The notes beneath the pieces are model-generated. The model was given only the letters and a program-made list of their open reading frames with translations, was not told where the DNA came from and made no database searches. This document shows, piece after piece, positions 3,500-46,739 of a stretch of DNA of 46,739 nucleotides. The position numbers and the translations under genes are program-made. The stretch covers positions 1 through 46,739 of the IMG/VR virus record IMGVR_UViG_3300044971_000413. One strand, given 5' to 3'. This DNA comes from a virus. The number at the start of each line of letters is the position of its first letter. The stretch's first letter is position 1.

Positions 3500-6070
3500 A
3501 TGATTGACAAGCCTCTAGATGAAACGCCTTTCCTTGAAGAAGAGGATAGCGCCGAAGTTGAAGTTGAAGTATTGAATCCAGAGGCTGTCTCTATCGAAAC
3601 AGAGGATGGCGGGATGTTGATTGAGTTTGGGCCTTCTGAAGAAGAGGAAGGCTCACTCGGCAGCGTCCCGCATTCTGCCAACCTTGCAGAGCATATTGAC
3701 GATTCCGATCTGTCTTCGATTGGAATGAAGATCTTGGATGTCTACCAAGAGGATCTGAATTCGCGCCAGGATTGGGAAAGGGCCTATAAAGAGGGCCTAG
3801 ACTACCTTGGCGTGAAGACTGAGGACAGGAACAAGCCTTGGGCTGGCGCGTGTGGGCTTTACCACAACATGATTATGGAAGCAGCAGTTCGCTTCCAGTC
3901 CAATGCGATTATGGAGATCTTCCCGGCGACTGGTCCGGTAAAGACTCAGATCATTGGTGAGGTAACGGAAGAGAAAGAGGATCAGGCTCTCCGCATTCAA
4001 ACCGATATGAACTACCTGCTCACGCAGGATCTTAAAGACTATCGGCCTGAGACTGAGCGGTTGCTGTTTGGGTTGTCCCTTTGCGGATCGGCTTTCAAGA
4101 AGATCTGCTTCGACCCTCTTACGGATATGCCTGACGCCAAGTACGTCCCGGCGCAAGACTTCATCATGCCCTACGGGGCTACCTCTCTTAAGACGGCCAG
4201 TCGCTATATCCACGTTCTCACCAAGAGTTCTAATGAAATCAAGAAGCTACAGTACAGCGGCTTCTATCGCGATGTAGACCTCCGTCCTGATTACGACTCT
4301 AATTCTCAGCTTCAGGACAAGATCGACAAGATTAGCTACGAGTACAAGCAGGGTGACGAGGATTCGATTACGCTTCTTGAAGCGCATATCGACCTGGATA
4401 TTCCTGGCTTGGAGCATACCGATGAAGACGGAGAGGCCACTGGGATTGCTCTGCCGTATGTCGTTACCGTAGACAAGTCCTCGGGTAAGGTTCTTTCGAT
4501 CTACCGGAACTGGGATGAGGATGATCCCAAGAAGAACAAGCTGATTTGGTTTAGCGCCTACAACTACGTCCCCGGAATGGGCGCGTATGGGTATGGTCTT
4601 ATCCATTTGATTGGCGCGAACGCTAAGGCTTCTACGGCAATCCTGCGCCAGTTGATTGACTCTGGCACTCTAGCCAACCTCCCTGGCGGTCTGAAGGCCA
4701 AAGGGATGCGGGTGTCAGGAGATGACTCGCCAATCCAGCCTGGGGAGTGGAGAGACGTAGACGTTGCGAATGGAGACATCGCTCGTTCGCTTTATCCACT
4801 ACCTTATAAGGAGCCATCGCAAACTCTCTTCCAATTGCTTGGGAATGTAGTTGAGGATGGCCGTAGGCTGGCTTCTATTGCGGATGCTGAGATTGGAGAT
4901 GTCAATTCGCAAGCGCCAGTAGGGACTACGTTGGCAATTATGGAACGTGCGCTCAAAGTGATGAGCGCCATCCAGGCGAGGCTTCATGCTTCGTTGCAGG
5001 ACGAGTTCTCTATCCTCGTCCGTGTGATCCGCGACAGTGGATCTGAAAGATACAAGATTGATTTCGGGAAGATGAATGGGAGCAAGCGGTCTGATTTTGA
5101 CAACCGCATTGATGTGATCCCTGTCTCTGACCCGAATGCGGCTACGATGTCGCAGCGAGTGATGCAGTATCAGGCTGCGATTCAACTTGCTGCTCAAGCG
5201 CCGCAGTTCTACGACCTGCCTGAGTTGCATCGAAAGATGCTGGAAGTCCTTGGTATAAAAGATGTTAAGAAGATCATTCCTGAGAAGATGGACGCCCCAC
5301 TCCTCGATCCGATCTCGGAGAACGCTAACATCACAAACATGAAACCTGCTAAGGCATACATGACGCAGGATCATCAATCACACATTATTGCCCACATGGC
5401 GTATGTGCAAAGTCCTACCGTCCAGCAGCAGTTGGGACAGAATCCTCAGGCAAACGCGATCTTCGCTGCTTTCATGGCGCATATTGCAGAACACGTTGGG
5501 TTCGCATATCGCAACCAGATCGAGCAGAAGCTCGGTATACCGCTTCCGCCTCCGGGACAGCCTATGCCAGCGGACATTGAATCCAACCTCTCTAAGGCCA
5601 TTGCAGACGCATCTCAGGCCCTTCTACAGGAAGCGCAAGGACAACAGGCACAGCAGCAGGCTCAACAGCAGGCTCAGGATCCAATTGTCCAGTTGCAGCA
5701 GGCAGAGTTGCAGATCAAGCAGGCGGAACTCCAGCAGAAGGCTCAGGAATCTCAGCAGAAAGCGCAGTTGGAGATGGTGAAGAACCAGACGAAGGCTCAA
5801 TTGGAGACCGCCAGGATCCAATCTCAAAATCAAATGACTCAACAGGCTGCTGCACAACGCGCACAGCAGTCTCAGAGTGAACTGGCGCTAGATAATCAAC
5901 GTCTTCAGTTGGAAGTCCAGCGCTTGCAAACGGACCGGCAGGAGTCTGAAGCCCGTATTCAGGTAGAAATGCAGAGAATGCAGACCGAAAACGACATGGC
6001 GAAAGCCAAGATCGCAGAAATCTTAGCCCGAATGGACACGTTGGGAGCAAATGCTGGACCTACGCAGTAA
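3500..6070 (+). CDS. Portal protein
   Basis: An 856-residue portal, the dodecameric ring at the head vertex through which DNA is packaged and ejected. The N-terminus (1-60) is acidic. The body (about 90-560) has features seen in P22/SU10-like portals (YKEGLDYLGV, PWAGACGLYHNMI, FGLSLCGSAFKK, PAQDFIMPYGA). The last about 220 residues are Gln/Ala-rich long helices (HAQQQAQQQ-type runs, LQQAELQIKQAELQQKAQ), matching the extended C-terminal barrel of long portals. It overlaps the next gene by 20 bp. Its position directly after TerL supports the call. Confidence 0.92.
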   Translation: MIDKPLDETPFLEEEDSAEVEVEVLNPEAVSIETEDGGMLIEFGPSEEEEGSLGSVPHSANLAEHIDDSDLSSIGMKILDVYQEDLNSRQDWERAYKEGLDYLGVKTEDRNKPWAGACGLYHNMIMEAAVRFQSNAIMEIFPATGPVKTQIIGEVTEEKEDQALRIQTDMNYLLTQDLKDYRPETERLLFGLSLCGSAFKKICFDPLTDMPDAKYVPAQDFIMPYGATSLKTASRYIHVLTKSSNEIKKLQYSGFYRDVDLRPDYDSNSQLQDKIDKISYEYKQGDEDSITLLEAHIDLDIPGLEHTDEDGEATGIALPYVVTVDKSSGKVLSIYRNWDEDDPKKNKLIWFSAYNYVPGMGAYGYGLIHLIGANAKASTAILRQLIDSGTLANLPGGLKAKGMRVSGDDSPIQPGEWRDVDVANGDIARSLYPLPYKEPSQTLFQLLGNVVEDGRRLASIADAEIGDVNSQAPVGTTLAIMERALKVMSAIQARLHASLQDEFSILVRVIRDSGSERYKIDFGKMNGSKRSDFDNRIDVIPVSDPNAATMSQRVMQYQAAIQLAAQAPQFYDLPELHRKMLEVLGIKDVKKIIPEKMDAPLLDPISENANITNMKPAKAYMTQDHQSHIIAHMAYVQSPTVQQQLGQNPQANAIFAAFMAHIAEHVGFAYRNQIEQKLGIPLPPPGQPMPADIESNLSKAIADASQALLQEAQGQQAQQQAQQQAQDPIVQLQQAELQIKQAELQQKAQESQQKAQLEMVKNQTKAQLETARIQSQNQMTQQAAAQRAQQSQSELALDNQRLQLEVQRLQTDRQESEARIQVEMQRMQTENDMAKAKIAEILARMDTLGANAGPTQ

Positions 6071-33649: not shown

Positions 33650-33875
33650 ATTTCTCATTTATACACCACTGCTCCATTAGTTGTTTGTTTATACACCACT
33701 GCTCCATTAGTTGTTTGTCTCTCATTTCCCTGAGGATTGATGCTTCATGATTCGCCTTGGTCCTGGCGGCGAGTCTCCCCCAGAAGTAAGCCCTTCCGTT
33801 CTCTCGTATGTACAGCCACAGAATTACTGATGCGCCTGTTAACGCGAGGACGATTGTCCCTGCTATGATTTCCAT
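33621..33875 (-). CDS. Small membrane protein with duplicated 10-residue tail
   Basis: An 84-residue protein with one N-terminal membrane span (about residues 3-22, IIAGTIVLALTGASVILWLY), then a charged cytoplasmic-type region. KQLMEQWCIN is repeated twice in tandem near the C-terminus because of a perfect 30-bp duplication. It lies three genes upstream of the endolysin in the same operon, so a holin or spanin-like role is possible. Its ATG shares one base with the stop codon of the RuvC-like gene upstream. Confidence 0.7.
   Translation of the reverse strand: MEIIAGTIVLALTGASVILWLYIRENGRAYFWGRLAARTKANHEASILREMRDKQLMEQWCINKQLMEQWCINEKYESKNKAQG
33658..33717. repeat. Perfect 30-bp tandem duplication, in frame
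   Basis: Positions 33658-33687 and 33688-33717 are identical. The unit length is a multiple of three, so the membrane protein gene stays open with ten extra residues. Absence of any mismatch suggests a recent event. Confidence 0.95.
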
Positions 33876-35409: not shown

Positions 35410-36316
35410 ATGGGGTTAGTTCTCCTCTTGGTGCAATCTTTTCTTTGAGTTCATTCCTACGCTGGTCGCACTTGCTGGCGACTCCGCAGTAGTTCCCCTC
35501 GCACTTGCGAGGTACGCCGGGGCGTATTTCGACCCAGCCTTCTTTGATTTCCTTCGTTCGTTCGTCTGCTTCCTCCTGCGTATCGTAGATCTTTACGGCC
35601 CTGGACTTCTTGGGATCCATTGCGGCGAATTTGTCGGGCATTCTCCACTGCTCCTGGTCAGAACAGTTTGGCAGTGGGTCACCGAATGTCATAGCTTCCT
35701 CAGCCTCCTGATGGGCCTTGACGCGACCGACCAAGTACTCCTGCTGCATTCCCTCAGGCCAAAGGCGAATGTCTAGAAGGGTGATAGGACCTTCTGTGTT
35801 TGACTTGAAGACGTTGCGTTTGTGGTCTCGCAGGATAGCGATGACTGAAGCGCCAGAGATTATCCTACCTGTCGATTGTTTGATTAGGTAGGCATAGGAG
35901 TTAAGCTGTTGCTCCCATTCAGCAGCGACTCCCCGTTCGATCTTGGATTCTGTTGTGACCTTCCAGTCGTAGAGGTGATAGGTCCCATCCCCGTTGGGGA
36001 TCTGGATGTCTACCTGACCGGACACCACCCACCCTAGGATGGTATGGTAGTAACGCTCTTCAACGATGTACTCGTCGGAGAACTGCTTGAGAGCATTGTC
36101 TGCGTACTGATGCCAAGCGGTCCCAAAAGATGACCATAGGCGGTCGATCACATCTTCTTCTAAACCGCTCTTGCGTAGCTGCCTAACTCGTGGCGCTTGG
36201 ATCAGTTCCGTCACTGACGCATGGCTGTTCCCCTTGGTATAGCTCTCGAAGGTCAGCACTGCCGCTATGCAGTCCGGCAGGCCATGTCTGTTCATGAAGG
36301 TACGTCTTGAGGACAT
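35402..36316 (-). CDS. Cas4/RecB-like PD-(D/E)XK exonuclease
   Basis: A 304-residue nuclease. The active site is visible as H69, D103 (SGQVDIQIP), D117-W-K119 (HLYDWKVTT) and Q137 with Y141 (QQLNSYAYL). Four cysteines, C218 and C272/C277/C283 (KCEGNYCGVASKC), could hold an iron-sulfur cluster as in Cas4. It should resect ends to give the single strands bound by the ERF protein. The start could be ATG 36316 or ATG 36295. Either way the 5' end overlaps the RHH gene by more than 100 bp in another frame. Confidence 0.88.
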   Translation of the reverse strand: MSSRRTFMNRHGLPDCIAAVLTFESYTKGNSHASVTELIQAPRVRQLRKSGLEEDVIDRLWSSFGTAWHQYADNALKQFSDEYIVEERYYHTILGWVVSGQVDIQIPNGDGTYHLYDWKVTTESKIERGVAAEWEQQLNSYAYLIKQSTGRIISGASVIAILRDHKRNVFKSNTEGPITLLDIRLWPEGMQQEYLVGRVKAHQEAEEAMTFGDPLPNCSDQEQWRMPDKFAAMDPKKSRAVKIYDTQEEADERTKEIKEGWVEIRPGVPRKCEGNYCGVASKCDQRRNELKEKIAPRGELTPYV

Positions 36317-36413
36317 CAGTTACGAGTCTCCTAATGGTTATATCCTGCTCAACCGCTTGGTGTTTGACCAAGCGATGCAGGTCTTGGCTGATAGTGATTG
36401 TCAGGCGTGGCAT
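36183..36413 (-). CDS. Ribbon-helix-helix (Arc/CopG-type) regulator
   Basis: Read from ATG 36413, the product is 76 residues. 'MPRLTITISQDLHRLVKHQA' followed by 'VEQDITIRRLVTDVLKTYL' fits an RHH fold: one strand (RLTITIS) and two helices. RHH proteins bind DNA palindromes as dimers, often in their own promoter. An inverted repeat GTGTA-N4-TACAC lies at 36416-36429, over the -10 box of this gene. The C-terminal about 35 residues are encoded in the region shared with the exonuclease gene. The likely TSS is next to the ATG, so the message may be leaderless. Confidence 0.68.
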   Translation of the reverse strand: MPRLTITISQDLHRLVKHQAVEQDITIRRLVTDVLKTYLHEQTWPAGLHSGSADLRELYQGEQPCVSDGTDPSATS

Positions 36414-36415
36414 CA

Positions 36416-36429
36416 GTGTAATTCTACAC
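36416..36429. promoter_or_regulatory. Candidate RHH operator
   Basis: The perfect inverted repeat GTGTA-attc-TACAC overlaps the minus-strand -10 box (36421-36426) and ends 3 bp from the RHH start codon. Its place suits autorepression by the RHH product. Confidence 0.55.
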
Positions 36430-36449
36430 ACATTCACATTTGCGCACAA
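36421..36449 (-). promoter_or_regulatory. Sigma70-like promoter for the RHH/exonuclease/ERF operon
   Basis: On the minus strand TTGTGC (36449-36444), a 17-bp spacer and TAGAAT (36426-36421). The predicted start, about 36414, is 0-2 bases from the RHH ATG at 36413. Confidence 0.6.
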
Positions 36450-36474: not shown

Positions 36475-38262
36475 GTGCCAACATTTGAATCCCTAGCGAG
36501 GGGATTCCTGTCTTCAGGCCGGGGCAGTTGGAGGTCGATCTGCCCGGAGTGTAGCGCCAGCAGGAGGGGGTTCAATGCGAAGATACCCATCCTGTCCTGG
36601 TCGCACGGAGAAAGGGGTCCGGTTTATTTTTGCCATCATTGCAGTGCTTCAGGATGTGTTGTGGAGGAACGGCCTTCTTGGTATGCGCCAAGTCAGGCCG
36701 TCGAGCGCGTCGTTGAACACGGAGAAGATATGAACATAGAAGAACTAGACGCTTTATTCGAGGATGACCCTGCGCCTGTGCCTGAGGCTCTCCCCCCTGC
36801 CGCCGCGCCGGGAGACGTTCGCCTACTCCCTGACCACGTTGCCTTCCTTCAGAAGCGAGGCATCTCTTTAGAGACTGCGAATCTGGGCAAGCTCTTCTCT
36901 GTCCGCAAGTTCATGAGGACGGGAGGAGATCAGGACTGCATTGCATTCCCCTACTACGATATGGAAGGCACGCTGGCCTCATCGAAGTACAGATCTGTTG
37001 CGACGAAGGCGTTCTCGCAGGACGCCGGAGCGGGAGGTCTGCTCTACGGTCTCCATCAGACCTTTGATACCTCCCGGCCTCTCGTCATTTGTGAAGGAGA
37101 GATTGACGCTTTATCTGTGGCACAAGTAGGGATACCTAATTGGGTATCGGTTCCTGCGGGAGCGCCAGCAAAGGGCGAGAAGGGCAACTCCCAGCGGTTC
37201 TCCTGGATCGCAGACTTGGAAGATTTCCTGGCACGGTTTAAGCAGTTCGTCCTCTGCGTAGACTCAGATGCGCCGGGAAAGAATCTCTGCGAAGAACTGG
37301 CGCGGAGATTGGGCAGGAGCAAATGCCAGACTGTTGTCTACCCGAAGGGGTGCAAGGATGCCAACGATACTCTCCTGCAAGGTGAGGATCTGTTGCGCAC
37401 TGCCCTCGCAGAGGCAAAGCCCATCCCCCTTACCAGTCTCTACACTGCCGATCACTACTTCGATCAAGTGATGGAGCTATTCACCAAGGGTGACGGTAGA
37501 GGGGAGAGTACTGGGTTCGCCGGGGTAGATAACCTGTACACCGTGGCGCGTGGGCAGATGACAGTCGTTACAGGCGTGCCTTCCTCAGGTAAGAGCAACT
37601 TCCTCGACCAGATCATGGTCAACTTGGCGCACCAGGATAACTGGAAGTTCGCTATTGCATCCATGGAGAACGAACCATCGAAGCATATCGCCAAGCTATC
37701 TGAGATGCACTTAAAGAAACCGTTCTTCTCGCAATGGCCCGGATCCATGACAAAGCAGGAAGCCCAGGAGGCAATCAACTGGTGCAAGACTCACTTCACG
37801 TTCATCGACTTCTCTACCAGCAGAGACCTGCCCACCGTAGATAGCTTGCTGGATCGCGCCCATGCGGCTGTCATGCGTTACGGAATAGACGGCCTAGTCA
37901 TAGATCCGTACAACTGCCTGGACCTCGGCAGGGGCGACAAGCAAAGCGAAACAGATGCAGTCTCTGGGATGCTCTCCAAGATCTCAGCCTTTGCTAAGGC
38001 ATCTAATATCCATGTATGGTTCGTGGCGCATCCCCAGAAGATGCAGGCGTTTGGGGGAGCGCCTATCCCTGGTGGCTACGACATCTCAGGTAGCGCCCAC
38101 TGGTTTAACAAGACGGACTGCGGCTTAACAGTACACCGTAAAGATGCAGATGGATACGTTGAAATCCACTGCTGGAAGTGTAGGTTCAAATGGGTCGGGA
38201 AGCAGGGGATGACGCGATTGAAGTACGACATCCCTACCAGCACATACTACGAACTGCCTTAG
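36475..38262 (+). CDS. Primase-helicase (T7 gp4-like)
   Basis: A 595-residue bifunctional replication protein. The N-terminal zinc ribbon has CPEC (23-26) and CHHC (53-56). The TOPRIM primase core shows 'VICEGEIDALSVAQ' (about 205-218) and 'VLCVDSDAPGKN' (about 260). The DnaB/RecA-type helicase shows Walker A 'TGVPSSGKSN' (about 367-376) and a Walker B-type 'GLVIDPYN' (about 472). It unwinds the fork and makes primers. The GTG start keeps the zinc ribbon intact and lies at the predicted transcription start. It is the only rightward gene between 32 and 45 kb. Its stop overlaps the convergent VWA gene by 4 bp. Confidence 0.93.
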   Translation: MPTFESLARGFLSSGRGSWRSICPECSASRRGFNAKIPILSWSHGERGPVYFCHHCSASGCVVEERPSWYAPSQAVERVVEHGEDMNIEELDALFEDDPAPVPEALPPAAAPGDVRLLPDHVAFLQKRGISLETANLGKLFSVRKFMRTGGDQDCIAFPYYDMEGTLASSKYRSVATKAFSQDAGAGGLLYGLHQTFDTSRPLVICEGEIDALSVAQVGIPNWVSVPAGAPAKGEKGNSQRFSWIADLEDFLARFKQFVLCVDSDAPGKNLCEELARRLGRSKCQTVVYPKGCKDANDTLLQGEDLLRTALAEAKPIPLTSLYTADHYFDQVMELFTKGDGRGESTGFAGVDNLYTVARGQMTVVTGVPSSGKSNFLDQIMVNLAHQDNWKFAIASMENEPSKHIAKLSEMHLKKPFFSQWPGSMTKQEAQEAINWCKTHFTFIDFSTSRDLPTVDSLLDRAHAAVMRYGIDGLVIDPYNCLDLGRGDKQSETDAVSGMLSKISAFAKASNIHVWFVAHPQKMQAFGGAPIPGGYDISGSAHWFNKTDCGLTVHRKDADGYVEIHCWKCRFKWVGKQGMTRLKYDIPTSTYYELP

Positions 38263-39401
38263 CTCTTGATCCTGATGACTTGGCCGAAGGGAGGACGGGC
38301 AGCGTATGCGCTACTCCCTACCTGCATCCAAAGGACGGGGACGCCAGGGTCAGGACCAAAGTCGTCGCACTCCATATCTGTCAGATAGACGTAAGCCTTA
38401 GGCTTGAGGTCATGCTCGATTGCGTGCCGAAAGACAGGAGCGAAGCGAGTCCCGCCACGCTGCGCTTGGAACCCTTCGAGTTCCATCGGCCGTCCCGGCT
38501 TGAGTTTCTCGTGTTTGTAGACTGAGGTGTCGCAGTATAGAACGTGCGTCATCTCAGGCTTGACCCGCTCCAGGAATTGGTTAATGAGACCCAGGAACCC
38601 AGATAGCTCGTGATTCGATACGCTGGCGCTGGTATCTAGACCGACAACGAGAGTACCCACGCCATCCTTCATCATGCTGGGCAGGTACATACCCTGTCCG
38701 ATAAACCGCCGGGAAGGGCGCTGCCAAGTGTAATCCTTAGGGAACATAGGTGCCATGAACTTCTCAAAGAGATAGGTGTAGTCTTCCTCAGGCTCTCTAG
38801 CCAGCGCCAGAAGATCCTGCAACCAACCAGGGAGTTTACCTACTGCTCTAGCAGCCTGCTCTGCTTGCGCGACAGAGACTTTGATATGCTCCTGCGCCGC
38901 AGAGAGTTCCTCTGCCGTGCCAGGACAAGGCAGGACATCGCCATTGCTGAAGTCAGGCTGGCCTTGGCCTTGACCTTGACCGTCTTTGCTCTTGTCCTTC
39001 TTCTGCTCGGGCAGTAGTTTATAGATTTGCTCCCACGACATATCTTTGTATCGGTCATCCAGTAAAGCCATCGAAGGCAACCCATACCCAGCGTCTCTTA
39101 TCAAGAGGTTGATAGCATAATCCATGGCTATATTCGCCCTGCGATGGTCATGCCCCTTGACCCGTAAAGGGTGCATCAGGGCAACGTGCATGATCTCGTG
39201 GATGATGACGGCCTTGACTTCGTTCTCCGTTATGCTCTCAACGAATTGGGAATTTAAGTAGAACTTCTGCCCGTCTGTTGCCATCGTAGGGCAGGTATTG
39301 TCTTCGACCCAAGGGAAGCGGAGGGCGAGGCTTCCGAAGAAGCACTCCCCCCCTAGCGCCATACGAATCTGTTGCCTTACGATCTTCTGCGCTGCTTTCA
39401 T
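38259..39401 (-). CDS. VWA protein with N-terminal zincin-like domain (DUF2201-type)
   Basis: A 380-residue protein. The N-terminal half has HEIMH (68-72) in 'AVIIHEIMHVALMHPLR' and then 'RRANIAMDYAIN', the pattern of the putative metallopeptidase in DUF2201. A Gly/Gln linker (about 138-150) follows. The C-terminal VWA domain has an intact metal site: D256-T-S258-A-S260, T318 (RGGTRF) and D342 (TDMECDDFG). VWA proteins of this type usually work with MoxR AAA+ ATPases; one is encoded two genes upstream. I infer a client-remodelling or proteolytic complex. Confidence 0.85.
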   Translation of the reverse strand: MKAAQKIVRQQIRMALGGECFFGSLALRFPWVEDNTCPTMATDGQKFYLNSQFVESITENEVKAVIIHEIMHVALMHPLRVKGHDHRRANIAMDYAINLLIRDAGYGLPSMALLDDRYKDMSWEQIYKLLPEQKKDKSKDGQGQGQGQPDFSNGDVLPCPGTAEELSAAQEHIKVSVAQAEQAARAVGKLPGWLQDLLALAREPEEDYTYLFEKFMAPMFPKDYTWQRPSRRFIGQGMYLPSMMKDGVGTLVVGLDTSASVSNHELSGFLGLINQFLERVKPEMTHVLYCDTSVYKHEKLKPGRPMELEGFQAQRGGTRFAPVFRHAIEHDLKPKAYVYLTDMECDDFGPDPGVPVLWMQVGSSAYAARPPFGQVIRIKS

Positions 39402-39409
39402 ATATCCCC

Positions 39410-40297
39410 CTATGCGAACATCCCGCGCATCTCTGCGATGATGTCGTCGGCTTCCTGTGCGATGGACTTGGCAGACTTGGCGACATCAGCACGAGCGCCA
39501 TCCACCTCACGCAGGACTTGGGCATCGTACTCGCAGAGTTCTTTGTCGATCCTGATGGCGAGGTCAGAGAGTCGCCTGTCGCCCGACACGTTCAGCTTGG
39601 GCAGTAGTTGCGCTAATTCCCGGACGTTGCTTACGAGAGAGTCACGGAAGGAACCCTCACGAGTACCCTGATAATTCTCCAACCGCTCTGCCATGTTCGC
39701 AGTCTGCGACTGGATGCGCTGGAAGAGATCCATACAGGCCTCGTTGTAGTTGTGAGACAACCGCTTGGAGAGATCTGCCTCCATCTGCTTCAGGACTTCC
39801 TGCCCAAGGGATACCCGGAAGTCGCCAGACTCAGGGACGGGGGAGAAGGAGATCTCCCAGGAGAACTTAGATCGGATCTCGCTGACGGGCGGGAAGTCTT
39901 CGATGTTGAACAACCCGTTGAGCCGATACTTGGCCTCGTCTACTACGTCAGGGTATTGCTTCACGAACGTGTCAAGCAGGCCCTCATGCTTGGTCCTGTA
40001 CTCAGACATTGCCTGCTGATAGGTTGAGAAGTTATTGACGGGGAGGATGCGGACCCCCTCAGCGGCCTGCCAGGGGAGCGTCTGCTTGTAGTGGAACTCT
40101 CGTGCGGCTGAGATGTTGGCAGACATATCTGCCATGTACTTCTTCGAGGCGAGTTGCTTGTTGAAGCGGCCCACCTCTCCGGCGTGTTTGTTCGCGCCGT
40201 GATTGGCCTCGACTTCCTGCGTGGCCTTCTTATCAAACTTCCGGGCCGTCCACTGCGAGACGGAGAAACGAACGAGGATAGCTTTCTGGGATAACAT
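39410..40297 (-). CDS. Coiled-coil partner of MoxR/VWA cassette, 295 aa
   Basis: It lies between the VWA gene (8 bp downstream) and the MoxR-like gene (35 bp upstream). The N-terminus (MLSQKAILVRFSVSQWTARKFDKKA) is followed by mixed sequence and a helical C-terminal half (MEADLSKRLSHNYNEACMDLF..., RSVANVR-like and LRIDKEL-type helices). There is no catalytic motif or membrane span. The placement recalls DUF3150-type proteins next to phage ATPase/VWA genes, which should be checked. Its own start is preceded by AGGAG and by the 16-bp palindrome (40316-40331). Confidence 0.78.
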   Translation of the reverse strand: MLSQKAILVRFSVSQWTARKFDKKATQEVEANHGANKHAGEVGRFNKQLASKKYMADMSANISAAREFHYKQTLPWQAAEGVRILPVNNFSTYQQAMSEYRTKHEGLLDTFVKQYPDVVDEAKYRLNGLFNIEDFPPVSEIRSKFSWEISFSPVPESGDFRVSLGQEVLKQMEADLSKRLSHNYNEACMDLFQRIQSQTANMAERLENYQGTREGSFRDSLVSNVRELAQLLPKLNVSGDRRLSDLAIRIDKELCEYDAQVLREVDGARADVAKSAKSIAQEADDIIAEMRGMFA

Positions 40298-40315: not shown

Positions 40316-40331
40316 TGTCTAAATTTATACA
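40316..40331. promoter_or_regulatory. 16-bp palindromic element, copy 1
   Basis: TGTCTAAATTTATACA (one arm with a single change from the perfect form) ends 18 nt upstream of the leftward ATG at 40297. On the minus strand it contains TATAAA. Confidence 0.75.
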
Positions 40332-40332
40332 A

Positions 40333-41361
40333 CTAGAACATCAGATCGTTGAACTGGGGAAGGTTCAGCATGGCAATCACCCCACGGGATGCCATCGCTT
40401 CTTTATTCCTGGCATCCAGGTCCCGAAGGAACAGGCACCCGTATTCTGGGGCCAATCGCCGGACGTACTGACAGAGAGCATCTCCGTTGGCAGGCTTCCA
40501 GTTCGCCGCCAGATAAACCGCCGTAGCGTAACAGGCGCTGAGATCGGTGGGGATATCCACTGCCATGGGGTTCGCTAGAATCGCGGAGATGAGGGGCAGA
40601 GAGCGCCATGTCCTGAGGAACCCCAGGAACTCTATGCCCACACCCATACCGATCAATCCGTTGATCAGGTCGGATGCGATGTCGTCGCTAGGTTCCTGGT
40701 CGAGGATGCGAGAGAGCATCTCAACAGAGCGAGGAGTGCAGAAAGCAAACTCCGACTTGATCGGCTTCTGTACTAAGAGATTCTTACGGAAGGCAAAGAA
40801 GGCCCGGAGTTCAGGACGGATATGCGGGGTGATAGGCTTGGCCGGGATAAGTTCCACGGTCATGTTGGCGTCACCCTTAGCCGCCCATCCGGCCCAGCTA
40901 TCGTAGCCGGATTCCAGCGTGATGTGCAGGAACCGATTGAGGAGTGGGGCCGGAGGTTGGGTGTAGTTGCCTCCGTCCTGAGCACGGTTGCCAGTCGCAC
41001 AGATGTACGCGCCATCAGGCAGAGAGTAGTCGCCTAGCCTACGTTCCAGGACTAGCTGGTACAAGGCGCATTGCACTGATAACGGCGCGTCAGGCAGTTC
41101 CTCGACGGCCAGGAGGGTATCGCCATGGGTAGGCAACCACGATGGGATAGCTCTCAGGCAGACGCCGTTGTCGATGTATGGAATACCCATATCCACTGGG
41201 TCCATCATCGTAGGCCGGATGTCGATATGCTCACGGCTTAAACCCCTGGCGACCATGCGGACGATGCTGGACTTCCCGACACCAGCCTGCCCCCAGATCC
41301 ACATAGGGACACGGGCATTGATGGCGACCTGAATCGCCTTTACGAGTTCTGTTGAATACAT
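40333..41361 (-). CDS. MoxR-like AAA+ ATPase
   Basis: A 342-residue AAA+ protein with Walker A GQAGVGKSS (24-32), Walker B LLAVEELPDA (83-92), sensor 1 in CATGNRAQD (N125) and an arginine-finger candidate in PLLNRF (139-144). The insert after Walker A (RPTMMDPVDMGIPYIDNG) suits the MoxR/CbbQ group. These ATPases remodel targets chosen by VWA partners. Two genes downstream is the VWA/zincin gene. The start at 41361 has an AGGAG 8 nt upstream and a hairpin before it (41378-41401). Confidence 0.87.
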   Translation of the reverse strand: MYSTELVKAIQVAINARVPMWIWGQAGVGKSSIVRMVARGLSREHIDIRPTMMDPVDMGIPYIDNGVCLRAIPSWLPTHGDTLLAVEELPDAPLSVQCALYQLVLERRLGDYSLPDGAYICATGNRAQDGGNYTQPPAPLLNRFLHITLESGYDSWAGWAAKGDANMTVELIPAKPITPHIRPELRAFFAFRKNLLVQKPIKSEFAFCTPRSVEMLSRILDQEPSDDIASDLINGLIGMGVGIEFLGFLRTWRSLPLISAILANPMAVDIPTDLSACYATAVYLAANWKPANGDALCQYVRRLAPEYGCLFLRDLDARNKEAMASRGVIAMLNLPQFNDLMF

Positions 41362-41377
41362 ATATCTCCTGTTAGAT

Positions 41378-41401
41378 AAGGGCAGATCAGTGCCTGCCCT
41401 T
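41378..41401 (-). other. Hairpin in leader of MoxR-like gene
   Basis: AAGGGCAG / CTGCCCTT form a perfect 8-bp stem with an 8-nt loop, 12-15 nt upstream of the gene's ribosome site on the minus strand. On the plus strand TTGTTGTT follows, so it could also end stray rightward transcription. Adjacent is a double TTAAGGG. Confidence 0.5.
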
Positions 41402-41406
41402 TGTTG

Positions 41407-41589
41407 TTAAGGGTTAAGGGTTAGCTTCCAAGGTTGAAGCAACTTGCGCCGTCGAGTATCTGATTCGGAGGCGATGGCTCGAGCTTGGTCAACGGTACTA
41501 CGCGCCCAGCTATGCGCTTCCTCGTCTGTCTTGAACCGTTTGGTAGCGTGCTGCTTTCCGTTAGGTTCGTAGAGTATAGCGATGGTCAT
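41407..41589 (-). CDS. Small hypothetical protein, 60 aa
   Basis: A basic helical product (MTIAILYEPNGKQHATKRFKTDEEAHSWARS...). The sequence 'FKTDEEAHSWA' resembles small phage proteins with a strand-helix fold. ATG 41589 overlaps the stop of the upstream membrane microprotein (ATGA). No family is recognised. Confidence 0.62.
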   Translation of the reverse strand: MTIAILYEPNGKQHATKRFKTDEEAHSWARSTVDQARAIASESDTRRRKLLQPWKLTLNP

Positions 41590-41711
41590 AACAGTTTAAG
41601 CAACCACCACAACACGGTGCAGACGAATAATGCTGACAGGGCGCAGAAGAGGAGTCCGATGATACCTGCAAGGGCTTCAATCCACTCTTCGATACTCTTA
41701 AAAACTCTCAT
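41586..41711 (-). CDS. Membrane microprotein, 41 aa
   Basis: Minus-strand ATG at 41711, stop TGA at 41586-41588. The product has a short charged N-terminus (MRVFKSIEEWIEAL) and a hydrophobic stretch of about 25 residues (AGIIGLLFCALSALFVCTVL and on). It overlaps both neighbours by 4 bp (ATGA at each end), a sign of coupled translation. It could be a holin- or pinholin-like membrane peptide; that is inference. Confidence 0.6.
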   Translation of the reverse strand: MRVFKSIEEWIEALAGIIGLLFCALSALFVCTVLWWLLKLL

Positions 41712-41956
41712 CTGGTATACCCCTCACCAGCCAAGTCCCTCTCCCGCATCTTGAGCAGAATGCGGTTGATCTCGTACTCGTTGCTTTCGAGTACGGCTAT
41801 GTCGAGTTCGTACTGGAGTTCATCTCCATGCCAGATCGCTGCTTTCAGGTGCCGGATCTTGTCCACCAAGTAGGTGGACATAGGTGTCCCGGTCTCCCGC
41901 AACTGCGTCTCGATGGCTTTCAGTTCATCACTGCACCACTTCTGAAATGTGTTCAT
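41708..41956 (-). CDS. Small helical hypothetical protein, 82 aa
   Basis: An acidic/charged helical protein (MNTFQKWCSDELKAIETQLRETG...). It has a ribosome site AAGGAG and palindrome copy 2 just upstream (41967-41982), so it may head a short sub-operon of this gene, the 41-aa microprotein, the 60-aa protein and the MoxR-like ATPase. No family is recognised. Confidence 0.65.
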   Translation of the reverse strand: MNTFQKWCSDELKAIETQLRETGTPMSTYLVDKIRHLKAAIWHGDELQYELDIAVLESNEYEINRILLKMRERDLAGEGYTR

Positions 41957-41966
41957 ACCTCTCCTT

Positions 41967-41982
41967 TGTCTAAATTTATACA
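41967..41982. promoter_or_regulatory. 16-bp palindromic element, copy 2
   Basis: TGTCTAAATTTATACA, identical to copy 1, ends 10 nt upstream of ATG 41956 and only 2 nt from the stop of the upstream microprotein gene. Confidence 0.75.
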
Positions 41983-41984
41983 GG

Positions 41985-42086
41985 TTATTTGGTTAGGGAG
42001 TAGATAGCGGCAAGTGCTATCACAATGTACGGCAGGTACTTGAGCAAGGCTACCGTTATCTGGTCGAGCAGGTCAGGGCCTTTCAC
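41985..42086 (-). CDS. Membrane microprotein, 33 aa (GTG start)
   Basis: GTG 42086 overlaps the stop of the 55-aa gene (GTGA). The product is amphipathic then hydrophobic (LLKYLPYIVIALAAIYSL near the C-terminus), predicting one membrane span. It is short and starts with GTG, so the call is tentative, but the coupling and the two similar neighbours support it. Confidence 0.45.
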   Translation of the reverse strand: MKGPDLLDQITVALLKYLPYIVIALAAIYSLTK

Positions 42087-42250
42087 TTGCCTTCTGCCTC
42101 ACGCTGTAGGGAAGCAAGCAGATCTTTACCTGCCTGCCCTTCCATCTGTTGAGGCAACACCCAGCGGCTTACGGTACGGCCGTTAGGGAAGACGAGGGAC
42201 ACCTGGATGGTGTCCCCGCCAGCGTCTTGGATGCGTAGCTCAGGAGTCAT
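42083..42250 (-). CDS. Small hypothetical protein, 55 aa
   Basis: ATG 42250 has GAGGAAG just upstream and lies inside the end of the preceding gene (11-bp overlap). The product opens MTPELRIQDAGGDTIQVSLV and continues with FPNGRTVSRWVLP, a likely small beta fold, and a helical tail. No family is recognised. Confidence 0.6.
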   Translation of the reverse strand: MTPELRIQDAGGDTIQVSLVFPNGRTVSRWVLPQQMEGQAGKDLLASLQREAEGK

Positions 42251-42536
42251 ACTTCCTCGCTCGCCGCCTCATTTCCTCGCCGAAAAGATAATCTTGAATC
42301 TGCCCCAGCTCTCGTTTGACCTGCAATAGCTTTGCCATTCGCTCGCTGTGCTGATCTTGCGCCACATACAGCGCAGGCGTCCCTTCAATGTTCCCCTGAG
42401 GGTAGTAGTCTCTACCGTTAGGAGCGGCTTCAGCCAGTGCGTCTATTGCGGTTACTACCGCATGGTAGGCACGTTCGTTGTTCTCGATCAGGGACTGTAA
42501 GGAAGTCCCGTTCATGTGTATCGTTGGCATTATCAT
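42240..42536 (-). CDS. Small helical hypothetical protein, 98 aa
   Basis: ATG 42536 is chosen because AGGAG lies upstream and the palindrome copy 3 precedes it; a longer ORF from 42638 would run into the clamp gene. The product is mostly helical (SLIENNERAYHAVVTAIDALAE..., MAKLLQVKRELGQIQDYLFGEE) with a basic tail. No family is recognised. Confidence 0.7.
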   Translation of the reverse strand: MIMPTIHMNGTSLQSLIENNERAYHAVVTAIDALAEAAPNGRDYYPQGNIEGTPALYVAQDQHSERMAKLLQVKRELGQIQDYLFGEEMRRRARKYDS

Positions 42537-42552
42537 CCGTTTATCTCCTGGT

Positions 42553-42568
42553 TGTCTAAATTTAGACA
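42553..42568. promoter_or_regulatory. 16-bp palindromic element, copy 3
   Basis: The perfect palindrome TGTCTAAATTTAGACA ends 16 nt upstream of ATG 42536 and contains the clamp gene stop codon (TAA, 42562-42564). Confidence 0.8.
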
Positions 42569-43122
42569 GAGTAGCGGCGCGACTGATACCCTTTCGCCTC
42601 TCGAATCGGCATGAGGAGCGATTGAACGTCTTGCCCATCTTCCCGTGCCGATTCTAGGATGATTGCGTTGTTATTCGGCCTATCGGGGTTAAAGTACATA
42701 CGAACGAGCCCATCCGCAGCGGCGTGGATCTCCATAAGATCCTTCATGTACTTCGGATCGAACTGGATGCACGTCCAATCCTCAGACTTGGGGACAACCC
42801 GTTCATAGTCCGGGAAGTATCCCTGTAGTGCTTCAAAGGTCACGTTCACGCCCTCCGACTTGAACGAGATATCGGCTTGGCTTGCGCCAGTAATCTCGAC
42901 AGAGTTCTTCCCTGCCATCTTGGCGAGTTGCACCGCATCCGCAGACTTCAGGACGACGTGCTTGTCCATTTTGTCGGCGGTGGCCAGATGCTTAACTCTC
43001 GTCAAGCGGTGGCCATCCGTCACGACCGTCTCTTTGTTGGTAAGGAAGATCCCGTTCAGCGTAAAGCGGGATTCCGTCTTGGCGACGATCTTATGGATCA
43101 TCAGGCTAAGTTTGGTAATCAT
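42562..43122 (-). CDS. DnaN-like sliding clamp, shortened (two-domain?)
   Basis: A 186-residue protein with signatures of bacterial beta clamp domains 2 and 3: 'SRFTLNGIFLTNKETVVTDGHRL', 'GYFPDYERVVP', and near the end 'SLLMPIREAK', which mirrors the MPMR/L C-terminus of DnaN. The usual clamp has three domains and about 366 residues; domain 1 has no counterpart here. A two-domain clamp would need to trimerise to close a ring, like T4 gp45. No DNA polymerase is encoded in the window. The palindrome copy 4 lies upstream with a TAGGAG ribosome site. Confidence 0.8.
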   Translation of the reverse strand: MITKLSLMIHKIVAKTESRFTLNGIFLTNKETVVTDGHRLTRVKHLATADKMDKHVVLKSADAVQLAKMAGKNSVEITGASQADISFKSEGVNVTFEALQGYFPDYERVVPKSEDWTCIQFDPKYMKDLMEIHAAADGLVRMYFNPDRPNNNAIILESAREDGQDVQSLLMPIREAKGYQSRRYSV

Positions 43123-43137
43123 AATTCTCCTATTGGT

Positions 43138-43153
43138 TGTCTAAATTTAGACA
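43138..43153. promoter_or_regulatory. 16-bp palindromic element, copy 4
   Basis: The perfect TGTCTAAATTTAGACA ends 15 nt upstream of the clamp ATG (43122). The following bases ACCAATAGGAGAATTAT are the same as in copy 5. Confidence 0.8.
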
Positions 43154-43156
43154 ACG

Positions 43157-43258
43157 CTAGAACACTATTAGATAAACTGCGAACATCGCCGCATAGATAG
43201 CGACAATGAATAGCAGAGTGAGCGTGCTTTCAGTCTCGACGGATTTACGGGGGTCCAT
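43157..43258 (-). CDS. Membrane microprotein, 33 aa
   Basis: ATG 43258 shares one base with the stop of the gene upstream (TAATG). The product has a polar N-terminus (MDPRKSVETEST) and a hydrophobic span LTLLFIVAIYAAMFAVYLIV. It stops 3 nt before palindrome copy 4. The size and layout match the microprotein at 41985. Confidence 0.55.
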   Translation of the reverse strand: MDPRKSVETESTLTLLFIVAIYAAMFAVYLIVF

Positions 43259-43518
43259 TAGGCGTTCCCCCCGGCGACGAACACCCATACATAGCTACCG
43301 TCCGCTAGCACTCCACCCGCTAGGGTGCGGTTCTCTCCGGCCGAGATCCACCCCCGTTCGGCCGCCAGCGCCATAGCGGCGGCACGATGGTTGCTGTCAG
43401 GGTTTAAGCTGTATTCCCAATCGAAATAGCGCCGCTTGCATCCCGCTGCGGTTGCGCTGATGCGCGACCGACGGTTAAACTTGATTTCTTTGGCCCGTGT
43501 CACGATAGCATAGTGCAT
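43258..43518 (-). CDS. Small hypothetical protein, 86 aa
   Basis: The start at 43518 is preceded by TAGGAG and palindrome copy 5. The product has a basic N-terminal half and a section 'NHRAAAMALAAERGW' followed by a Gly/Val beta-type end (GGVLADGSYVWVFVAGG). No family is recognised. It is followed by the coupled microprotein. Confidence 0.68.
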   Translation of the reverse strand: MHYAIVTRAKEIKFNRRSRISATAAGCKRRYFDWEYSLNPDSNHRAAAMALAAERGWISAGENRTLAGGVLADGSYVWVFVAGGNA

Positions 43519-43536
43519 AATAATTCTCCTATTGGT

Positions 43537-43552
43537 TGTCTAAATTTAGACA
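43537..43552. promoter_or_regulatory. 16-bp palindromic element, copy 5
   Basis: The perfect TGTCTAAATTTAGACA ends 18 nt upstream of ATG 43518. It directly abuts a second palindrome at 43553-43567. Confidence 0.8.
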
Positions 43553-43594
43553 GAGTACAGTGTACTCATCCAAGCGCTCTCATAACGCGCTTGG
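43553..43594. repeat. Two further inverted repeats next to copy 5
   Basis: GAGTACA-g-TGTACTC (43553-43567) is a perfect 7-bp inverted repeat around one base. CCAAGCGC-N9-GCGCTTGG (43570-43594) is a perfect 8-bp hairpin. With copy 5, three palindromes fill 43537-43594, the gap before the next gene. Confidence 0.7.
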
Positions 43595-45381: not shown

Positions 45382-45541
45382 TAGCGGCTTACGTTTATCA
45401 GCCCGGAGGCGGCGGCGCTATCGTTCCAGACTCAACATCAGTTAGACTGTTGTCCGTTTGGCATGCTGTCGTCTCGTTTTCTCTCGAGACTATTTAGTGG
45501 TAGCGGCTTACGTTTATCAGCCCGGAGGCGGCGGCGCTATC
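45382..45541. repeat. Perfect 41-bp direct repeat, two copies
   Basis: 45382-45422 and 45501-45541 are identical (opening TAGCGGCTTACG, closing GGCGGCGCTATC), 119 bp apart. Each copy can pair its ends (TAGCG / CGCTA) and holds a small GCC-cgga-GGC hairpin. It is GC-rich in otherwise AT-balanced sequence. It could be an iteron, RNA structure or recombination site. Confidence 0.85.
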
Positions 45542-46560: not shown

Positions 46561-46696
46561 AGGCTCCACCCCCCTAATTTTCTAACACCTGGAGTATTCC
46601 TGTAGTTCTTTATACAGGACCCCCCCCTAATGTTTTAGGTACCATCTGACAGTGCCGTATATATTTTTGTTTACCCCCGTGGGGGTCGTTGTAGGG

Positions 46697-46739
46697 TTGA
46701 CCGCTACGCGTTGACCGCTACGCGTTGACCGCTACGCGT
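46697..46739. repeat. 14-bp tandem repeat at window end
   Basis: TTGACCGCTACGCG is repeated three times (46697-46710, 46711-46724, 46725-46738) and the sequence stops one base into a fourth copy. The true copy number is therefore unknown. Confidence 0.95.

Follow-up and report, generated by a model that had tools for sequence, protein, structure and literature searches.

The viral record IMGVR_UViG_3300044971_000413 of IMG/VR (46,739 nt, analysed at its full length and referred to here as the window) carries five copies of a short palindrome, each just upstream of the start codon of a leftward gene in its early half. The element is real, is not described in the literature that we found, and is a variant of a known but unexplained kind of repeat. 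We consider the palindromes to be, probably, dispersed DNA operators of a dimeric and presumably phage-encoded protein acting on the early operon. This reading is favoured because the dyad is preserved through paired changes, its copies are uniform within a genome, the sites are associated with gene starts and some copies are unable to form an RNA hairpin, and because the structural half of four relatives is devoid of sites and no promoter signature accompanies them.

Results

A search of the window allowing up to three mismatches returned exactly five matches (starting at 40316, 41967, 42553, 43138 and 43537), against 0.09 expected (standard deviation 0.29), and none of 100 dinucleotide shuffles of the window contained five or more. 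The rest of the 46,739-base record holds no further copy, and a reversed-pattern control gave none. A chance origin of the five copies is excluded. An earlier note, made from the sequence alone, had listed three perfect and two variant copies at these positions and none elsewhere, exactly as the search confirms. On the strand that codes for the leftward genes, copies 3–5 are the perfect TGTCTAAATTTAGACA, and copies 1 and 2 are TGTATAAATTTAGACA, with one change (TGTCTAAATTTATACA on the plus strand); the counterpart of copy 2 in the relative L037 (L037:8090) is a perfect TGTCTAAATTTAGACA. The window type is 16 bp long with a constant 2-nt AT centre. From copy 1 to copy 5 in coordinate order, the gap between palindrome and ATG is 18, 10, 16, 15 and 18 nt, and a site resembling a ribosome-binding site (RBS) lies between the two at all five copies, which bears out the spacing of 10–18 nt to the ATG, with the RBS in between, given in that note; its assignment of the copies to the coiled-coil, 82-aa, 98-aa, sliding-clamp and 86-aa genes was also correct (Table 1).

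Relatives (designated by L numbers) were collected by an exact scan of IMG/VR for the palindrome and by searches at the protein level, for which the clamp, coiled-coil, AAA and helicase genes served as queries. The exact scan retrieved one close relative with many copies, L034 (L037 is the same contig reversed), and the members added by protein search share terminase, capsid and early genes. Common to the relatives is the slot, which follows an early gene's stop codon and precedes the RBS of the next gene, with a sequence that is specific to the lineage. The element is TGTCCAAATTTGGACA, with both arms altered in concert, in L038–L040, L051, L068/L097 and L104; in more distant members the same slot is occupied, in several copies each, by GTCCAAA-n-TTTGGAC together with GTCTAGA-n-TCTAGAC in L099, L100, L101 and L103, by TGTCTCAC-n-GTGAGACA in L102 and by AGTCTCA-nnn-TGAGACT in L095. 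At the end of the clamp gene in L038–L040 the copy reads TGTCTAAATTTGGACA, and the T retained in it keeps the TAA stop codon of the clamp. Over all types, the arms measure 6–8 nt and the centre 0–3 nt. Copies in one genome have nearly the same arms; their centre is variable where the spacer is 3 nt long (L095, L099–L103) and almost always AT in the 16-bp types. Copy number is five in the window, seven in the genome of L038 and up to nine in relatives; the closely related L098 has a single copy.

The earlier note had made its proposal depend on the element being present at the same positions in close relatives, and its positions are indeed kept: sites stand at the starts of the clamp, 98-aa, 82-aa and coiled-coil genes in L037, and the altered palindrome stands at both ends of the clamp gene and at the start of the 82-aa gene in the more distant L038–L040. 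In L096/L097 a palindrome precedes the AAA+ ATPase gene instead. Outside the group, exact matches of both palindromes in IMG/VR are mostly single copies with unrelated flanks, and relatives of the major capsid protein in bacterial genome bins have no perfect copy.

The pooled set comprises 91 sites, or 69 once homologous flanks are removed. A site was counted as start-linked if the 40 nt downstream of it held, on its own strand, an RBS and the start codon of an open reading frame (ORF) of at least 30 codons. By this definition 42 of the 69 sites are start-linked, compared with a mean of 6.2 and a maximum of 15 in 2,000 trials of random placement in the same regions, and with 3 when the opposite strand is considered. 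No exact or one-off copy was found at the structural-region loci of the L038, L068, L099 and L102 genomes.

Discussion

Given the slot between a stop codon and an RBS, the transcribed palindrome could fold into an RNA hairpin upstream of the RBS that controls translation, coupling or mRNA processing. Perfect copies do fold (−4.5 to −7 kcal/mol), and several lineages have what would be a 7-bp stem with a variable 3-nt loop. We nevertheless regard a hairpin as unlikely: TGTATAAATTTAGACA, which accounts for two of the five window copies, stays unfolded (0.0 kcal/mol), the one-base deviants are mostly mismatches other than the G–U wobble, and one conserved copy in L038–L040 sits in an oppositely transcribed gene. 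Pairing in all copies with G–U tolerated, as in a structured RNA, is not what the sites display, and a loop that varies on paired arms that are fixed is the reverse of what most stem-loop-binding proteins read. Judged by the established anatomy of operators, fixed arms with a drifting centre would point to a dimer reading double-stranded DNA. The earlier note had ranked a DNA-binding dimer or a −10-type promoter core above an RNA hairpin. Its first option stands, given that the arms change together between lineages, the centre drifts and two of the five window copies do not fold, and its second is not supported. As a promoter core, the AT-rich palindrome would give each gene a short leader, with transcription starting 10–18 nt upstream of the ATG, and the coding strand of copies 1 and 2 does read TATAAA; this proposal is very unlikely, because the other lineages have TCCAAA, TCTAGA or TCTCAC at that place, the flanks of the 69 sites contain no −35/−10 at any fixed distance and little information beyond A-richness, and a promoter scan returned 8 candidates versus 8.2 in shuffles. 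The −35 and −10 hexamers 16–18 nt apart that define a sigma70 promoter are absent at the palindromes, whereas the gene of a ribbon-helix-helix (RHH) protein in the window has an ordinary sigma70-like promoter by eye (TTGTGC-N17-TAGAAT), in a region without a palindrome.

The repeats might also be exchange boundaries for early cassettes, used by the Erf-like annealing protein and the resolvase that the phage encodes, with no part in regulation. The gene order of the window is A–site–B–site–clamp, where B is a cassette of the 86-aa gene and a 43-aa ORF between two 36-nt direct repeats; in L037 the cassette is missing at that place, a single repeat/site joins flank A to the clamp, and the 86-aa cassette is found at 5366-5743, next to another palindrome copy. 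Between L038 and L039/L040, an added or replaced gene begins 6–14 nt past a palindrome, and junctions with no relation to each other share the one-base variant TGTATAAATTTAGACA, as though it had been copied. One gene cassette has moved at palindrome repeats, and the repeats can serve as junctions. A general recombination hot spot was considered and rejected: breakpoints fall near palindromes in 26 of 112 cases versus 11.5 for random positions, an excess that drops when gene-start junctions are compared with one another (27/84 with a palindrome versus 73/326 without; odds ratio 1.6, P 0.09, the pairs being non-independent), so that the enrichment is not significant. Exchange boundaries also leave unexplained why dyad symmetry is kept in each lineage, and we consider them quite unlikely as the full account. 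Sites for replication, partition or packaging, or for a host protein, are highly improbable. Dyads would fit such sites in a phage that encodes a clamp, a helicase-primase and recombination proteins, and a host factor is conceivable; however, confinement to gene starts of the early operon is unlike partition or packaging sites, and lineage-specific sequences would demand a different host factor each time.

According to the operator reading, the five palindromes would be copies of one dyad-symmetric operator for a putative dimeric DNA-binding protein, placed at the 5′ ends of early cistrons, after one gene's stop codon and before the RBS that follows. The protein would most likely act inside the early transcription unit and not at a promoter, by forming a roadblock or silencing transcription where cistrons meet. 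Co-evolution of site and binder would be expected to give a site sequence that is specific to each lineage and near-uniform across its copies. We infer all three of these points: binding by a protein, its origin from the phage genome, and repression or gating of the early transcription unit.

Two products are candidates for the binder: the RHH protein and the product of the first early gene, which is helical and possibly a helix-turn-helix protein. The RHH protein has a CopG-like strand, RLTITIS, and its gene probably starts at ATG 36413 rather than TTG 36449. The window encodes this protein, as do all group members with a record that extends over the locus; it was not detected in five named phages or in the group of relatives with TATTAA repeats described below. 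The residues presumed to face the DNA, from knowledge of Arc/CopG, are R-T-T in the window and L038, R-T-E in L085 and L099, R-T-H in L095 and R-T-N in L102. In most relatives the first early gene encodes a conserved protein of ~190–225 aa with a motif like ISRAQF..MANLG (split over two frames in L051). A palindrome closely precedes it in L037, L051, L095, L100, L102 and L103 and lies at a greater distance before it in L068, L099 and L101. Its AlphaFold model is all-helical (pLDDT 86) with no match in the PDB, and it has no Pfam or PHROG family; the weak viral matches include one annotated DUF3102. Palindrome counts were compared with the subfamilies of this gene in four genomes, where sites are few, and the family was not found in the examined parts of the genomes of L098 and L104.

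Several observations weigh against the operator reading. The predicted contact residues of the RHH protein do not track palindrome type and the promoter region of its gene lacks the palindrome, which led us to reject it as the cognate binder, and L098 encodes a normal RHH protein yet has one palindrome. The first early gene was rejected as well: its leader often contains a palindrome, but the family was not found in the window, with five sites, or in the genome of L038, with seven. Both products are retained as candidates. Two conserved copies in L038–L040 are intragenic, one in the coiled-coil gene and the other in the oppositely oriented primase-helicase gene, and one factor may not explain the two arm types that occur together in L099, L100, L101 and L103. 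The kinship of the phages limits the weight of any co-occurrence. Finally, the genes searched, a subset of those in a record that may be incomplete, yielded neither an integrase nor a lysogeny repressor, and a role as lysogenic repressor is unlikely for this reason.

The closest known kind is the dyad repeat of the Cluster O mycobacteriophages (the Corndog group), followed by the SAS/ESAS of Cluster K. Corndog has 34 copies of a 17-bp dyad, TGTTCGG-NNN-CCGAACA, whose function is not known; the authors predict that a dimer binds it, consider a part in transcription initiation doubtful, and describe an indel between repeat copies in these phages, which lack an integrase and have clamp and AAA ATPase genes (PMC4351075). 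Shared with the window are short dyads, phages in which no integrase was found, clamp and AAA ATPase genes, and copies in a leftward operon of small genes, some of them in coding sequence. The invariant 7-bp arms and variable centre of Cluster O recur in relatives L095 and L099–L103 with their variable 3-nt centres, whereas the window departs from the pattern of 17 bp, two 7-bp arms and variable 3-nt centre by its 16 bp and constant AT centre. Arms are identical within a Cluster O genome; in the window three of five copies are perfect and two have the same one-base change. Moreover, Cluster O has more than 30 copies genome-wide that are not tightly start-linked, in contrast to five tightly start-linked copies, all within 40316-43552, and here the sequence is rewritten between lineages of one phage group.

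The SAS/ESAS stand upstream of many small-gene starts, with an ESAS consensus that differs by subcluster and a function that is unproven (PMC3203893, PMC12699233). Adjacency to start codons is likewise found here (42 of 69 sites, 6.2 expected), but the SAS is an asymmetric 13-mer, GGGATAGGAGCCC, with an RBS-like core, and no SAS-like sequence or flank is present; the ESAS has imperfect 17-nt arms and mostly a 4–13-nt spacer, as opposed to arms of 6–8 nt and a centre of 0–3 nt. The stoperators of Cluster A are dispersed sites, and their sequence varies from lineage to lineage in step with the DNA-binding protein that the phage encodes, which is reported to halt elongation (PMC6550527, PMC9283540). 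Dispersed, lineage-varying sites with a phage protein that stops elongation are also the working model that we propose; stoperators differ in being asymmetric, oriented 13-mers bound by a monomeric repressor in temperate phages, where the present sites are dyad-symmetric. In actinophage phiC31 a single phage protein binds conserved inverted-repeat operators, which lie in many of the gaps between early genes; the inverted repeats between early genes are similar, and the difference is that this protein is the repressor of a temperate phage. We have not filed the element in the Cluster O, SAS/ESAS or stoperator family because its copy number, length or symmetry differs from theirs.

Similar arrangements occur in more distant phages. 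In the 60 kb of the Planktothrix cyanophage Pag-Yong1 (OL906435.1, L172–L174), GGTTCAG-n-CTGAACC occurs 25 times, and many copies follow a stop codon and precede an RBS and then an ATG. Four helicase relatives from IMG/VR (L127, L131, L134 and L144; GC content ~33%) have 9–11 copies of TATTAA-N4-TTAATA per record, some before starts and some intragenic, and no copy of the reversed pattern.

It is possible, although doubtful, that these cases reflect a regulatory code recurring in phage groups without known lysogeny genes, in which a lineage's own dyad marks the early cistrons and a co-evolving phage protein silences or gates them. If so, incoming or recombining cassettes would come under control by carrying the right mark, and the same design with different sequences would operate in the group of the window, the TATTAA-N4-TTAATA group, Pag-Yong1 and the Cluster O mycobacteriophages. 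Dispersed phage repeats such as those of Cluster O and the SAS/ESAS have been noted for more than a decade without a known binder or function. Several sequence versions occupy the same slot in one phage group, and site and binder can therefore be matched across lineages; Pag-Yong1, with its 25 copies, is a named phage in which the question of binder and function could be tested.

Other features of the window

The early leftward half encodes the sliding-clamp-like protein, the AAA+ ATPase, the coiled-coil protein, a DUF2201 metallopeptidase/VWA protein, an exonuclease, the Erf-like annealing protein, an SSB-like protein, a resolvase, a dUTPase and an endolysin, with a Toprim/DnaB primase-helicase gene divergent from them (Table 1). 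Hairpins comparable to the one upstream of copy 5, with matched arm changes, precede sites in L037, L038–L040 and L051. The RHH gene overlaps the predicted start of the exonuclease ORF (36183-36449).

Table 1. Palindromes, associated repeats and genes of the window, with loci of the first early gene in relatives
Feature	Position	Strand	Description
Palindrome copy 1	40316-40331	−	TGTATAAATTTAGACA, one change in left arm; 18 nt before ATG of coiled-coil gene
Palindrome copy 2	41967-41982	−	TGTATAAATTTAGACA; 10 nt before ATG of 82-aa gene
Palindrome copy 3	42553-42568	−	Perfect; ahead of 98-aa gene; overlaps clamp stop codon (TGTCTAA)
Palindrome copy 4	43138-43153	−	Perfect; 15 nt before clamp ATG
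Palindrome copy 5	43537-43552	−	Perfect; 18 nt before 86-aa gene
36-nt direct repeat, copy a	43118-43153	−	Palindrome 4, leader, RBS and start region
36-nt direct repeat, copy b	43517-43552	−	Palindrome 5, leader and RBS; 97% identical to copy a
Gene cassette	43154-43516	−	Holds 86-aa gene and 43-aa ORF; flanked by the 36-nt repeats
Short palindrome	43553-43567		GAGTACACTGTACTC; next to the hairpin below
Hairpin	43570-43594	−	CCAAGCGC-(GTTATGAGA)-GCGCTTGG; upstream of copy 5; pairing read by eye
RHH protein gene	36183-36413	−	76 aa, MPRLTITIS...; candidate binder
DUF2201 metallopeptidase/VWA gene	38259-39401		Next after coiled-coil gene
Coiled-coil protein gene	39410-40297	−	Downstream of copy 1
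AAA+ ATPase gene	40333-41361	−	phrog_1297; kept across the phage group
82-aa gene	41708-41956	−	Downstream of copy 2
98-aa gene	42240-42536	−	Downstream of copy 3; start at 42536
Sliding-clamp-like gene	42562-43122	−	Downstream of copy 4; Pfam DNA_pol3_beta_2, E=2e-6
86-aa gene	43258-43518	−	phrog_3199; downstream of copy 5
First early gene (relatives)	L037:4722-5294; L099:852-1463; L095:2227-2796; L102:5337-5888; others

Megablast against annotated phages gave no DNA match to the window. The terminases of the nearest named phages, 023Pt_psg01, HTVC027P and DSL-LC04, are 55–57% identical to that of the window; these three have no copies and no palindrome of their own repeated at least four times, and five named, more distant phages have no copy of the window palindrome. 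At 46696-46739 and 1-1643, the record ends in a 14-bp tandem repeat and, if it is circular, has ~2 kb from small to large terminase gene versus ~7 kb in the genome of L038; it may be an incomplete record or one with a deletion. The early operon of relatives includes homologues of mycobacteriophage L5 gp82 (Pfam E=9e-32; L039:4871-5287) and of Gene product 88 (E=9e-27; L084:10250-10981). The window also has a perfect 30-nt tandem duplication (33658-33717) and, within 1 kb of non-coding DNA that lies upstream of its early genes, a perfect 41-nt direct repeat (45382-45422 and 45501-45541), to which repeats near 6974-7246 of L038 are related.

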